From positions 1 to 62,067 of the forward strand of contig JADFXV010000011.1 of NCBI GenBank assembly GCA_015233395.1: a DNA stretch of 62,067 nt, in the 5' to 3' direction. Position numbers and translations under genes: made by a program. Positions 391-55,060 of the stretch are shown here, piece by piece. The notes below the pieces were generated by a model, which was given only the letters and a program-made list of their open reading frames with translations, was not told the DNA's origin and searched no databases. The stretch's first letter is position 1; every line of letters starts with the position of its first letter. The DNA comes from Desulfovibrionaceae bacterium. GTDB lineage: Bacteria > Desulfobacterota > Desulfovibrionia > Desulfovibrionales > Desulfovibrionaceae.

Positions 391-512
391 GCTTTGAGCA
401 TAAAGCGATTCGCTTTATGCCCAAAGCGGCGGACGCCGCTCGGCTCCGCTCTTAGCTGGGCCGTGCAAATAAACGGGAACGCGGAAAGGAAGAAATTTTT
501 CGCTCCCGTTCC
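391..512 (-). repeat. Family A palindromic repeat, copy A1 (reverse orientation)
   Basis: Read on the minus strand it gives a GGGAGC...GTTCCC hairpin, a GGCCC/GAGC-rich hairpin, the CGGCGTCCGCCG palindrome, and a final hairpin GCATAAAGCG/CGCTTTATGC. This is the same order as copies A3 and A4. The final hairpin differs in arm sequence from the others but is still self-complementary. The gap 35-536 holds nothing else except a CTTGCCGG/CCGGCAAG hairpin followed by T6 near 307-345. Confidence 0.7.
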
Positions 513-20725: not shown

Positions 20726-23227
20726 TCAATCGCGCCGGTTTTTCATCTCCAACCCGTTATGAACGGGAGCGGAGAATTTCTTCCTTTTCGCGCTCCCACG
20801 AATAATCCACCCGCGACGCAGCCTTTGCAACCCCACGAGCATCGCCGCCCCGCCGATTCCGGCGAGGGCCGCGCCGGTCCAGGCGGCCGGGGTCAGGGGG
20901 TCGATTTCGTAGAAAAGCCGCACCGCTCGCAGGGCGAGCCCGCCGCCTGGCCAGGCGCAGACCAGGGCGAAGACCGCGACCAGCGCCAGGGCGTAGGCGG
21001 TCTCGACGATGAGGCGCCGGGAGCGGTTTTCCGCGGCGACCAGGACGTAATTGACCGCCGCCAGAGCCACCATGGCCGCGAGCATGGCCATGGCGCCGAA
21101 ACCGTCCGCCGTCTCGCCGCCGAGCGCCCGGGTCAGGAAAAAGGCCGCCTGCGCGCCGCAGGTCATGACCAGGGCGGAGACGGCCGCGAAACTGGCGACG
21201 TCAAGCAGGAAACCGCGGCGCTTTTCGGTATTGGCGTTGCGCAGCGCTGTCAGCATGGCCGGGACGGCGATGGCGAAAATATTGAGCAGCGACACCCGGC
21301 GCGGGGTGAGCGGGAAATCGAGCGCAAAGCCGAGGGTGAGCAGCGTAGCGCAAATCACCATGAAATTCTTGGTCAAAAAAAGCTTGGCCACGGCCGCCAC
21401 GGAGTTCACGATCGTGTTGCCCTCGGCCAAAATCTCCGGCAGCAGCGTGAAGCGGTTGGCGAGCAGGACGATGTCCGCCACCTCCTTGGTCGCCTGACTT
21501 CCTTCCTCCATGGCGAACCCGAGGTCGGCTTCCTTGATGGCCGGCAGGTCGTTGACCCCGTCGCCGAGCATAACCGTGTGCTCGCCGGCCGCCTTGAGCG
21601 CCCGGACGATGCGCAGCTTGTGCCCGGGAGTGAGCCGGGCGAAAATCGTCTTCTCCCGGCAGGCGGCGGCAAACGCCTCGCCGTCCATCGTCTCAAGCTC
21701 GCCGCCGCCGACCGTGTCGCCGGAACCGGCCTCCCAGCCGATGTCGCGGCAAACGGCTGCGACCGCCGGCGCGGCGTCGCCGGAGAGGATCTTAAAGCGT
21801 ACGCCGCGAGACTGAAAGTCGCGGATCACCCGGCCCGCCCCTTCGCGCACCGTGTCGCCGATCGCGGCCAGGCACAGCGCCCGGGCCGAAAACGCGCCGC
21901 CCGCGCGCACCGCCTCAAGGTCCGTGTCGCCGGCGATCTCGACCAGCATGAGTGCGCGATACACGTGCAGCCCGTAGCGCGCGTAGAGTGTTTCGGCCTT
22001 TTCCCGGTCGTCTCCGGACAGGCGTTCAAGCAGCAGATCGTAGCCTCCGAGCGCCCAAATGAAAGGCCTGCCGCCGCGCCTCAGCGCCAGAAAACTCATC
22101 TTGCGCTCTGAGGAAAAGGCGATCTCGTCCACAAGCTCGACCGAACGGTCCACGGGATAGGCCGCAAGCGCCAGGGCGGTGGAATTTTTCTCCGTGGCCA
22201 GCGCGGCGAAGGTGCCGAGCAACTTTTCCGCATCGGCCTGGAAAAGCTCTCCGGCCAGGGGAGCGGCCAGCTTCACCGTGAGCCTGTTTTGCGTCAGCGT
22301 GCCGGTCTTGTCCATGCAGATCACCGTCGCGGCGGCAAAGGACTCGATCGCCCCGAGCCGCTGCACCACCGCCCCGATCCGGCTGATCCGGTACACCCCG
22401 AGCGCGAACGTCGCAGAATTTACGAGCACCAGCCCCTGCGGCACGAGCGCGATCAGGATCGCCCCCAGGCGGCGCACGAAGTCCGCGTCCATGGGGACGT
22501 CCCCGCGCCGCCAGAGAGACAGGAGAATCAAAATCACGGCCGAGGCGAAAAGCGATTGCACCAAAGCGTTGACGCGCCGGGTAAGCGGCGTGGGCGTCAA
22601 CTTGTAGCGCCGGGCGATCCCGGCGACCCCGGCGGCGAATGCGTCCGCGCCCACGGCCGTGACCTCGAAATAGCCGCTGCCGGCGACGCAAAAACTTCCG
22701 GACAAAACGGCGTCGCCCGCAGCCTTGGCGACCGGCTCCGACTCGCCGGTGAGCAGGGATTCGTCCATCTCCAGACGGCGCGAGATCAGCAGGCGCCCGT
22801 CGACCGCCGCCTGCTCGCCCCGCGCCAGACGCACCACGTCGCCAAGCACCAAGTCCTCGGGCGCGACCGTACCGGTCACCATGTCCCTGACCACCGTGAC
22901 CTCGCGGACCAAAAGCAGGCGCACCGCATCGAGCGCGCGCTTGGCCCGGATCTCCTGGACAACGGCGATCGCCGTGTTGAACAAAGCCACCATGGCCACG
23001 CCCAGGCAGTCCAGAAGCAACCGCCCGTCGCCCTGGCGGAAATAAAACACGAGGAAAAAGGCGATCACCGCCGCGATGATGGCGTTGAAAACCGAACAGA
23101 CGTTCTCAAGCCAAATCGAGGCCAGCGTCTTGGTTCGGGGCGCGCCGGCGGCGTTGCTTAGACCCCTGGCGGCGCGCTCGCGCGCCTCCTCGGCGCTCAA
23201 GCCGGATAATTTGGCGCTGGCGTCCAT
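20726..23227 (-). CDS. Cation-translocating P-type ATPase, C-terminus encoded by a repeat
   Basis: 833 residues. ATP-driven cation pump in the inner membrane. Motifs: LLTGESEPVAKAAGD (actuator), CMDKTGTLTQNRLT (phosphorylated Asp), and MLGDGVNDLPAIKEADLGFAMEEGSQATKEVADIV (hinge). About ten hydrophobic segments in the P2/P3-like layout; there is no heavy-metal CxxC domain and no CPx motif. It resembles the CtpE-like group, so the ion is unknown. The last 26 residues, from IIRGSAKRKKFSAPV, are read from repeat A2 and the bases beyond it. ATG at 23227; longer starts run through repeat B7. Confidence 0.87.
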   Translation of the reverse strand: MDASAKLSGLSAEEARERAARGLSNAAGAPRTKTLASIWLENVCSVFNAIIAAVIAFFLVFYFRQGDGRLLLDCLGVAMVALFNTAIAVVQEIRAKRALDAVRLLLVREVTVVRDMVTGTVAPEDLVLGDVVRLARGEQAAVDGRLLISRRLEMDESLLTGESEPVAKAAGDAVLSGSFCVAGSGYFEVTAVGADAFAAGVAGIARRYKLTPTPLTRRVNALVQSLFASAVILILLSLWRRGDVPMDADFVRRLGAILIALVPQGLVLVNSATFALGVYRISRIGAVVQRLGAIESFAAATVICMDKTGTLTQNRLTVKLAAPLAGELFQADAEKLLGTFAALATEKNSTALALAAYPVDRSVELVDEIAFSSERKMSFLALRRGGRPFIWALGGYDLLLERLSGDDREKAETLYARYGLHVYRALMLVEIAGDTDLEAVRAGGAFSARALCLAAIGDTVREGAGRVIRDFQSRGVRFKILSGDAAPAVAAVCRDIGWEAGSGDTVGGGELETMDGEAFAAACREKTIFARLTPGHKLRIVRALKAAGEHTVMLGDGVNDLPAIKEADLGFAMEEGSQATKEVADIVLLANRFTLLPEILAEGNTIVNSVAAVAKLFLTKNFMVICATLLTLGFALDFPLTPRRVSLLNIFAIAVPAMLTALRNANTEKRRGFLLDVASFAAVSALVMTCGAQAAFFLTRALGGETADGFGAMAMLAAMVALAAVNYVLVAAENRSRRLIVETAYALALVAVFALVCAWPGGGLALRAVRLFYEIDPLTPAAWTGAALAGIGGAAMLVGLQRLRRGWIIRGSAKRKKFSAPVHNGLEMKNRRD
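20757..20812. repeat. Family A repeat, single-hairpin copy A2 inside the ATPase gene
   Basis: TTATGAACGGGAGCGGAGAA...TTTTCGCGCTCCCACGAATAAT: the first hairpin of family A only. It lies entirely within the 3' end of the P-type ATPase coding sequence. Confidence 0.8.
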
Positions 23228-33213: not shown

Positions 33214-33341
33214 ATTAACGGGAGCAGAAAATTTCTTGCTTTTCGTGCTCCCGTTTATTTGTACGGCCCCGCTTTTGGCGGGGCCAAGCGGCGTCCGCCG
33301 CTGGGAGCGTAAAGTTAAAAACTTTGCGCTCCCAGTAATAA
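33214..33341 (+). repeat. Family A repeat, full copy A3
   Basis: Three parts: hairpin 1 ATTAACGGGAGC...GCTCCCGTTTAT; a GGCCCCGC/GCGGGGCC hairpin plus CGGCGTCCGCCG; and hairpin 3 GGGAGCGTAAAGTT/AACTTTGCGCTCCC. It lies between B9 and C5, so three families are stacked in one 315-base gap with no gene. Confidence 0.85.
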
Positions 33342-40913: not shown

Positions 40914-41037
40914 ATTAACGGGAGCAGAAAATTTTTCATTTTCGCGCTCCCGTTTATGAGTATGGCCCCGCCAAGAGCGGGGCCAAGCTGCGTCTGCAGC
41001 TGGAAGCGTGAAGTGAAAAACTTTACGCTCCCGGTAA
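40914..41037 (+). repeat. Family A repeat, full copy A4
   Basis: ATTAACGGGAGCAGAAAATT...CGCTCCCGTTTATGAGTA, then GGCCCCGC/GCGGGGCC, then CTGCGTCTGCAG in place of CGGCGTCCGCCG, then GGAAGCGTGAAGT/AACTTTACGCTCCC. The remainder of the gap 40850-41212 holds no gene. Confidence 0.8.
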
Positions 41038-50292: not shown

Positions 50293-50478
50293 TTAGGCGG
50301 CGGCCTTCATCTTCCTTTTGCGAAGGAAGGCGGCGCCGGCGGCGCCGATGCCCATGAGCAGCATCGAGGCGGGTTCGGGAGTAGCGGAAGGATCGCCGTC
50401 CGCAGCGCCTCCCGATCTTTGTCCCCGGCCATGGCCGACTGGGGGCGATATGAACGGGAGCAGAAAATTTCTTGCTTT
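50293..50478 (-). pseudogene. Truncated gene tail carrying a PEP-CTERM sorting signal
   Basis: The frame ending at the TAA complement at 50293 reads ...DGDPSATPEPASMLLMGIGAAGAAFLRKRKMKAAA: the PEP motif, a hydrophobic helix and a basic tail, the form of an exosortase sorting signal. Upstream the frame is broken by a TGA inside family A copy A5, and no start codon or ribosome-binding site is seen. The protein it belonged to is lost or cut off by the repeat. The exosortase is not in the window. The rest of the gap 49981-50582 shows no gene. Confidence 0.7.
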
Positions 50479-50500
50479 TCATGTTCCCGTTTATGAGTAT
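50448..50500 (+). repeat. Family A repeat, copy A5 (first hairpin)
   Basis: GATATGAACGGGAGCAGAAA...TTTTCATGTTCCCGTTTATGAGTA, then TGCTTCCGCTATTCG, a broken second hairpin compared with A4. It interrupts the upstream side of the PEP-CTERM gene tail. Confidence 0.75.
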
Positions 50501-51127: not shown

Positions 51128-51254
51128 TTATTACCGGGAGCAAAAAGTATTTTCTTTTTTGCTCCCGGCGGCGGACGCCGCTTGACCCCGCCTAGAGCGG
51201 GGCCGTGCTTATCAATGGGAGCGCGAAAATGAAGACATTTTCTGCTCCCGTTAA
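51128..51254 (-). repeat. Family A repeat, full copy A6 (reverse)
   Basis: Read on the minus strand: AATTAACGGGAGCAGAAAATG...CATTTTCGCGCTCCCATTGATAAG, then GGCCCCGC/GCGGGGTC and CGGCGTCCGCCG, then CCGGGAGC...GCTCCCGG. Its first bases supply the TAA stop of the metalloprotease gene. Confidence 0.8.
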
Positions 51255-53623: not shown

Positions 53624-54280
53624 ATGAAGAATGCTCAAATCGTCTGGTATTTCTTGATCCTGCTTTGTATCTTCGGTTTGGCGGGACAGGCTCAAGCGCA
53701 GGACGCTTCTTTGGGCGATCGCGCGCGCGAGGGAACGTCGCCGGAGGATTTTGTCCCCAATGGATGGAAAGTGGATTTCCAGGTGAGCGGTGATTTGAAC
53801 GGAGACGGAGTTCCGGATGTCGCAGCGATACTCATTGAAGACAAACGGGAAGACGATCGGACTGATGCTGACGAGGGGCCAAAACATGCATTTATTGTTC
53901 TTCTTGGCGCGGACAACGGTAAATTCTTGCTGGCAGGGACAAATTTTAAACTTCTCCAATGCAAAGGATGCGGCGGGGTCAAAGAGTTTGTCGATATACA
54001 AATCAAAAAAGGGGTTGTTGTTGTCTCCCAGATGAGTGGCTCCAGGGAGTATACCTACAGCACATGGCGCTTTCGCTATGACCAAAAATTACAGCGCTTT
54101 ATTTTGATCGGTATGGACATCGAGGAAGGAGACAATGTCCTCGGGAAAAAAAAGATAGTCAGTTCCAATTATTTGACCGGGTTGAAAACAATTCAAGAAG
54201 GCAAAAAAACGTCATCATCAACGATGAATGGAATAAATACTTCGCGGCAAGCTCTTTTTCTTGAAGATGTCGTCGAGTAA
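53624..54280 (+). CDS. Exported protein with a DxNxDG-type motif, unknown
   Basis: 218 residues. Signal peptide KNAQIVWYFLILLCIFGLAGQAQA. The motif SGDLNGDGVPDVAAIL (about residue 55) has the D-x-N-x-D-G spacing of calcium-binding FG-GAP/dockerin-like loops. The rest is beta-rich with no known family. It is less GC-rich than its neighbours. A second exported protein follows 54 bases later. Confidence 0.65.
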   Translation: MKNAQIVWYFLILLCIFGLAGQAQAQDASLGDRAREGTSPEDFVPNGWKVDFQVSGDLNGDGVPDVAAILIEDKREDDRTDADEGPKHAFIVLLGADNGKFLLAGTNFKLLQCKGCGGVKEFVDIQIKKGVVVVSQMSGSREYTYSTWRFRYDQKLQRFILIGMDIEEGDNVLGKKKIVSSNYLTGLKTIQEGKKTSSSTMNGINTSRQALFLEDVVE

Positions 54281-54334
54281 CCCCCGGAAGGCGAACCGCA
54301 TGAGTCAGCCCAACCAAGAAGGACGGAGGTCGTA

Positions 54335-55060
54335 ATGTCGCGTTGTACATCCCGTTGGCTGCCCGTGGCGGCGTTATCAGTGGGAGCGGAAAATGTCTTC
54401 ATTTTTGCGCTCCCAGTACTATTGTGCCTGCTGGCGGCTTCTTCAGCCCAAGGGGCGGACGGCGCGGCAGCGCGGGACGTGTCCATCCCGGGCACGGGTC
54501 TCTCCCTTCGCGTGCCTCCGGGCGTCGCGGTCTCGCCGGGTATATCGGCTTCTCCAGGCGTTGCGACTCTCTTCTTGGAGGTAGAGCCCATCCGGTCCTT
54601 CTCCCGGAACGGCGTAATCTCCAAGGCCGATGTCCTCGCGCAGCGAGCCGCCCTGGCCAAGGGCCGCGCCAAAGTGGCCGACGGATGGTCGGAGGACGGG
54701 CTCGACGAGATCGTGTCCCTGCCAACCGGCGGATTCGCCGTCATTTATCCTCAGTACAGCGAGTTTGAGATCTGCGACCTTCGTTTCACCATGAATGCCG
54801 CGTTTTTTGTTGGCGATCAGCGAGTCATTCTACGATACAGCCTTCCCCCAGCGGCGATCATCGCGCAAGACCCCGTCTTTTTCAGTCATGACGTGGCCGG
54901 TTGCGAGGCGGATACGATCTGGAAGGATCCCGGGCCGGACTTGTTTAAGCGCTTTCATGAGGCGGTCAAGGCCGGTCGCCTCGGGACCGCCGCCAATGCG
55001 TGGTACGCGGATTTCACGACCATCCTGGCCTCCCTGCACCGGAAGATTCCGAGTCGATGA
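54335..55060 (+). CDS. Exported protein with a repeat-derived signal peptide
   Basis: 241 residues. A probable signal peptide of about 40 residues, MSRCTSRWLPVAALSVGAEN followed by VFIFALPVLLCLLAASSAQG, is unusually long. Residues 14-29 (SVGAENVFIFALPV and flanks) are read from family A copy A7, in frame. Removing them leaves WLPVAA joined to LLCLLAASSAQG, a normal signal peptide. The mature protein (VPPGVAVSPGISASPGVATLF onward) has no family I recognise. It lies near a second small exported protein. Confidence 0.7.
   Translation: MSRCTSRWLPVAALSVGAENVFIFALPVLLCLLAASSAQGADGAAARDVSIPGTGLSLRVPPGVAVSPGISASPGVATLFLEVEPIRSFSRNGVISKADVLAQRAALAKGRAKVADGWSEDGLDEIVSLPTGGFAVIYPQYSEFEICDLRFTMNAAFFVGDQRVILRYSLPPAAIIAQDPVFFSHDVAGCEADTIWKDPGPDLFKRFHEAVKAGRLGTAANAWYADFTTILASLHRKIPSR
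54374..54421. repeat. Family A repeat, single-hairpin copy A7 inside a signal peptide
   Basis: TTATCAGTGGGAGCGGAAAA...TTTTTGCGCTCCCAGTACTA; compare A6 TTATCAATGGGAGCGCGAAAAT. It is 48 bases, 16 codons, without a stop in the reading frame used by the host gene. Confidence 0.8.

Follow-up and report, generated by a model that had tools for sequence, protein, structure and literature searches.

An in-frame insertion of a short TA-ended palindromic element in the predicted signal peptide of an exported protein from a Desulfovibrionaceae bacterium

How does a palindromic repeat come to be read as part of a signal peptide, and can the protein concerned still be exported afterwards? This question is raised by a locus in a stretch of DNA of 62,067 nucleotides from a Desulfovibrionaceae bacterium (contig JADFXV010000011.1; the whole stretch is called the window below), where a gene for a predicted exported protein carries near its 5′ end one copy, A7, of a dispersed hairpin family. 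The original prediction saw in A7 a hairpin captured as coding sequence, and our analyses bear this out at the DNA level, both by a gap in the orthologues and by the membership of A7 in the family. As read from the DNA, there is good support for a genuine in-frame insertion, by which a small palindrome with TA ends came to lie within a predicted signal peptide.

The open reading frame of the host gene (table 1) runs through 241 codons without a stop or a frameshift, and its product did not match any Pfam family. A simple gene caller that ignores ribosome-binding sites placed the start at 54380 in one run and at 54365 in another. We favour the start at 54335, because the N-terminal residues are conserved (the pattern M-x6-W-x5 is common to the orthologues) and because the ATG is preceded by GGAGG, similar to the aggaggtcgt that two of the orthologues (L194 and L195) have in common before their ATG. 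The end of the upstream gene (53624–54280) also resembles, by eye, the DNA before the gene in another orthologue, L193.

Nine of the 288 genomes of the bacterial family yielded a match to the protein, namely the genome studied here, five with close orthologues (L193–L197, 58–67% identity) and three with distant matches that start only beyond the signal peptide. The distant homologues L009–L011 (25–29% identity) were not used, since their matches begin only at query residues 45–118, after the signal peptide. The sixth orthologue, L012, is a copy 56% identical to the host gene (L012:3001–3681) in a metagenome-assembled genome labelled betaproteobacterial, its presence there reflecting either horizontal transfer or mis-binning; a 5′-truncated relative, L013, was left out of the count. 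The gene has a patchy distribution: of the 288 genomes from the bacterial family, five besides its own hold a close copy. Among 395 genomes drawn from the phylum it was found in its own genome only, plasmids gave no match and viral contigs no relative.

All six orthologues with a readable N-terminus lack 15 codons that the host gene has. The N-terminal part that ends in ADG or a similar motif (AGG or ANG) counts 28 residues in each of the six as opposed to 43 in the window, and opening a 45-nt gap raises the number of matching positions over the first 120 nt from 50–54 to 80–97. The empty site is seen in L193, the neighbour of the window in the unrooted protein tree (support 0.89), which reads GCGT-TA-TTCTGT where the window has GCGT-TA-[43 nt]-TA-TTGTGC; the gap can be placed against L193 at four equally good positions (54375–54378), which fits a duplication of TA or of TAT alike. 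The element was originally described as lying in frame inside the gene at 54335 with a length of 48 nt or 16 codons, and the missing segment was expected to be equally long in orthologues. The in-frame position and the gap stand, the latter in all six readable N-termini, whereas the length has to be corrected to a net insertion of 45 nt or 15 codons, the earlier stretch having taken in one codon of the host (TTA, 54374–54376). None of the six orthologues keeps the A7 residues in a hairpin-free form, and no match to the family model was found in the orthologue loci at E ≤ 1. Pairwise comparisons of the window with its orthologues give a dN/dS of 0.22–0.42 for the mature part, values that mostly cover the time before the insertion.

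Is A7 truly a member of the family? A repeat search delimited seven copies in the window, A7 included, and, as a safeguard against circularity, we trained a covariance model on the other six with A7 left out. This model still recovers A7 (48.1 bits, E 2.5e-12), which ranks seventh in the window behind the six training members; the claim that A7 is one of the copies of a dispersed palindromic repeat thus holds, and the outcome that would have spoken against it, a lack of kinship with the other copies, did not occur. Rfam at gathering thresholds reports one tRNA in the window and nothing at A7. The element folds at −20.9 kcal/mol (z −4.85), with none of 200 shuffles equally good, and the window has two occurrences of the pattern TGGGAGCGN{10,30}CGCTCCCA against an expectation of 0.01; the arm GTGGGAGCG by itself is unremarkable (two found versus 0.89 expected). 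The proposed kinship with copy A6 is also real, but A6 is not the closest relative, as nearer copies exist elsewhere in the genome: C83:26196, C76:30768, C114:78762 and C108:1154 each agree with A7 at 32 of 33 positions of the core. Judged by the core, A7 may have been inserted recently; when all 43 nt are compared, the best copies match at 38 positions, which lends no support to extreme youth.

Searching the 3.37-Mb genome with a model of all seven copies, with 150 of 1371 first-look candidates scored, gave 142 matches at E ≤ 1. From these we dropped seven opposite-strand duplicates, five matches that were weak or irregular (C1:6634, C69:22315, a span of 65 nt and two fragments of 19 nt) and C99:18164, whose contig was not included, which leaves at least 129 distinct family sites. 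A rough sorting of the 129 by regular expressions distinguishes 58 left hairpins of composites, 60 solo-like copies (these include some inner hairpins or composites), 10 members of another hairpin family with GGGAGAGC arms and one inner hairpin. The ends of the element read TATTAACGGGAGC. At 89 of the 129 sites TA stands seven bases 5′ of GGGAGC, compared with a TA background of 2.0% in the genome DNA examined; TA is present at both ends in 13 of the 60 solo-like rows, and adjoining copies have a single TA in common at C78:5623 and at C71:27361 and 27406. Within the bacterial family, eight of 59 genomes, its own included, contain a match to the model at E ≤ 1e-3. The two genomes with L012 and L013 gave no match, a result that shows nothing by itself.

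Table 1. Positions of the host gene, of A7 and of the other family copies in the window.
Feature	Position	Strand	Basis
Host gene, 241-aa predicted exported protein, function unassigned	54335..55060	+	no Pfam family; orthologues L193–L197 and L012
Shine-Dalgarno-like GGAGG, five bases 5′ of ATG	54325..54329	+	read from sequence
TA target duplication, left copy	54375..54376	+	empty site in L193; TA at 89/129 family sites
43-nt palindromic element, copy A7	54377..54419	+	leave-one-out model (E 2.5e-12); fold; 45-nt gap in 6/6 orthologues
TA target duplication, right copy	54420..54421	+	read from sequence; empty site in L193
A0, left hairpin of a composite	472..510	-	covariance model
A1, solo, TA at both ends, inside C-terminal end of ORF 20726–23227 (-)	20762..20800	+	covariance model
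A2, composite with hairpin at 33300–33336	33217..33255	+	covariance model
A3, composite with hairpin at 40999–41035	40917..40954	+	covariance model
A4	50453..50491	+	covariance model
A5, second hairpin of the composite holding A6	51133..51169	+	covariance model
A6	51214..51252	-	repeat search and covariance model

The window holds four composites (366–510, 33217–33336, 40917–41035 and 51133–51252), with the order family hairpin, GGCCCCGC-type hairpin, AGCGGCGTCCGCCGCT and second hairpin, and a similar hairpin-plus-GC-rich layout was seen by eye in L074–L077. Another hairpin family, with GGGAGAGC or GGGGAGAGC arms, is represented at L100, L101, L105, L113, L114, L115, L116 and L122 and has the loop region GCAGAAAATGTC..CATTTTCGTGC in common with the A family, i.e. 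there are two families with one core. More dispersed hairpin families occur at several places between positions 2954 and 45851 of the window, for example CGGGGGGAACTTTTTT..AAGTTCCCCCCG and GGGGAAAACCCTTTTGTGAACAAAAGGG.

To judge from the empty site and from the TA that marks the ends of family copies, A7 represents a short, MITE-like palindrome that would insert at TA and duplicate it. It entered the TTA codon for Leu14 of a gene for a predicted secreted protein and, since 43 nt and one TA make 45 nt, added 15 codons with the frame kept; codons 15–29 contributed in this way read SVGAENVFIFALPVL. That such an insertion into a signal-peptide gene did take place seems to us virtually certain.

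What the inserted element reads as depends on its frame. Entering an NTA codon in the orientation of A7, it reads as a hydrophobic peptide, here SVGAENVFIFALPVL, and for the family as a whole the same orientation and an NTA start give a peptide like (L)TGAENFFIFALPV(I), the NTA(+) translation of the by-eye consensus being LTGAENFFIFALPVI. For this comparison, 85 copies of the family were each taken as 43 nt between TAs; since many of them are composite left hairpins cut to that length, the survey describes the sequence and does not stand for as many solo insertions. In 68 of the 85 the NTA(+) frame is open (mean GRAVY of these 68, 1.41), while the two NNT/A frames are open in 84 each and the remaining three in 14, 23 and 28. 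As the element's own frame is hydrophobic, the hydrophobicity of A7 is no evidence of adaptation.

In the sequence, the A7 residues fall within the core of the predicted signal peptide; neither its n-region nor its cleavage region is affected, and the ribosome-binding site stays in place. By eye and by hydropathy, a basic n-region, a hydrophobic core and a cleavage end with small residues (SSAQG-ADG, close to the PAQGADG of the orthologues) can all be made out. Nine of the 12 residues of the most hydrophobic stretch, VFIFALPVLLCL, are supplied by A7. With the insert, the highest hydropathy over 12 residues reaches 3.03, and with it left out 2.61 (2.28–2.92 in the orthologues); AEN (residues 18–20) interrupts the hydrophobic stretch. 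The signal peptide would thus count about 40 instead of 25 residues and would likely still work with Sec and be cleaved at the old site. We regard it as reasonably probable, taking both parts as one statement, that A7 was inserted and that the rebuilt signal peptide still exports the protein.

Several other readings accept the insertion and differ as to its consequences. It may be recent and impair export, with a host gene that is tolerated for the moment and heading for loss, a course which we deem rather unlikely. The near identity of the core to other copies, with its hint at youth, and the patchy distribution of the gene would agree with decay; the intact reading frame of 241 codons, the preserved frame and hydrophobic character of the insert, and the limited similarity to the nearest copy over the full 43 nt speak against it. 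The branch of the window in the protein tree is, moreover, not long: it measures 0.18 versus 0.31 for the sister L193, and is not the longest in the tree.

It is likewise unlikely, in our estimate, that VFIFALPVLLCLLAA acts as an uncleaved anchor, by which a periplasmic protein would now be tethered to the membrane. Such an anchor could draw on the best 19-residue hydropathy, which rises from 1.50 with the insert left out to 2.14 with it, but the orthologues span 1.49–2.17, and L197 reaches 2.17 without any insert; the cleavage region, in addition, is unaltered and near that of the orthologues. We attach very little probability to the hairpin being kept for an effect of its RNA, the stem at codons 14–28 slowing translation or altering mRNA decay. 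Stable folding and an intact palindrome would agree with this reading, but the palindrome is the family's own structure, most copies of which (101 of 129) are situated between called genes, and in no orthologue does the model match at this place. Finally, there is hardly any chance that the 15 codons go back to an ancestor and have disappeared from six orthologues, or that the palindrome is fortuitous or unrelated sequence. We found nothing in favour of either: the former is ruled out by their absence from all six, including the sister of the window in the unrooted tree, the latter by the leave-one-out model and the fold, and family membership and the TA ends weigh against both.

The preferred reading, an insertion with a signal peptide rebuilt and probably functional, can be set beside the copies in or at other genes. 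According to the simple gene caller, 101 of the 129 sites lie between genes, 16 inside coding sequences and 12 partly overlap a gene; several of the 16 look by eye like too-early starts or spurious open reading frames (on C67, C73, C87, C108 and C85). At seven of the 12 overlapping sites (L017, L033, L041, L057, L062, L089 and L102) the called gene closes with Tyr-stop where the copy lies, a pattern to be expected of an element that took the TA of a stop codon as its target and added one residue. Of the 1103 TA dinucleotides in the window, 840 fall inside the hand-edited list of coding sequences, 126 of them as NTA; since most family sites are nevertheless intergenic, it seems that insertions in genes are for the most part either avoided or eliminated. 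For the few intragenic copies, one would expect to find survivors in hydrophobic stretches.

Coding status is backed by orthologues for A7 only, and three further copies are candidates. A1 lies in frame near the C-terminus of ORF 20726–23227 (−), which from reading its sequence we take to be a P-type ATPase, and would add residues like IRGSAKRKKFSAPVH; the best relative of this ORF is 28% identical, too distant to judge A1. A second candidate for an in-frame copy, C132:9602, lies at the N-terminus of a sensor-like protein. The third, C84:2921 (L132:1501–2604), is a degenerate copy without TA at its ends, located between the start and the signal-peptide core of a protease-like protein with the N-terminus MQMHGKR-NGSEKFHLFSAPGK-KNTPRRHVAAVFCLL; relatives of this gene mostly align only downstream of the signal peptide.

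A more general idea, which we put forward as doubtful, is that the element acts as a hydrophobic module that can be carried from place to place. In one orientation its in-frame targets would be NTA codons (Leu, Val, Ile), and precisely in that frame it would encode a peptide like TGAENFFIFALPV; signal peptides or membrane segments that receive it would tolerate the insertion or even be strengthened by it, and a TA-target palindrome could repeatedly supply the cores of export signals in the bacterial family. A7 itself is of value because the case is clean: both an empty site and a target duplication are seen where a short mobile palindrome has rewritten a predicted export signal in one step. 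It makes directly testable how far an insertion can rebuild a Sec signal peptide, and it suggests how the places in which an element is tolerated can depend on the frame that it carries with it.

Among known systems, the element looks like a TA-target MITE. It has terminal inverted repeats and many dispersed copies, and a duplicated TA is seen at one empty site (L193, where TAT is equally possible) together with the left TA at 89 of the 129 sites; TA duplication is presumably the mark of MITEs of the IS630/Tc1-mariner type. With such MITEs it has in common inverted repeat ends, TA duplication, many copies and no gene of its own, but it differs from them in being very short and in having composite multi-hairpin forms. 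PF13358 (DDE_3) has no match in this genome, which is our basis for proposing no IS630-type partner, and by eye no transposase was seen in the open reading frames between neighbouring copies.

REPs with GTAG or CGTC tags are, according to PMC3733652, likewise short high-copy palindromes, mostly intergenic, that sometimes provide stop codons or in-frame residues, all of which recalls the element studied here. Unlike them, it has TA at its ends instead of a constant tag (GTAG occurs at two and CGTC at 13 of the 129 sites), and membership among REPs of these types was rejected by the tag. A Y1_Tnp/RAYT partner was rejected as well: the genome has two matches to Y1_Tnp (PF01797), and no hairpin matching the family model at E ≤ 1 adjoins them in L191 or L192, L191 beginning near a contig end so that one side of its gene is hardly covered. 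A warning in PMC3733652 is that many N-terminal cases may not be translated.

The RPEs of Rickettsia are described in PMC10969869 and PMC3733652 as palindromic, mobile-looking repeats in frame within protein-coding genes, with a size of about 150 bp according to the former. A7 resembles them in being palindromic and in lying in frame inside a coding gene as an insertion missing from orthologues (six of six readable N-termini). The element differs in its 43 nt with TA ends, its location mostly between called genes and what is probably a sequence family of its own. The term ‘signal peptide’ does not occur in the main text of PMC3733652, and a literature search, with subscription literature largely outside its reach, found no palindromic element inside a signal peptide. 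In-frame palindromes as such are already known from RPEs and intragenic REPs.
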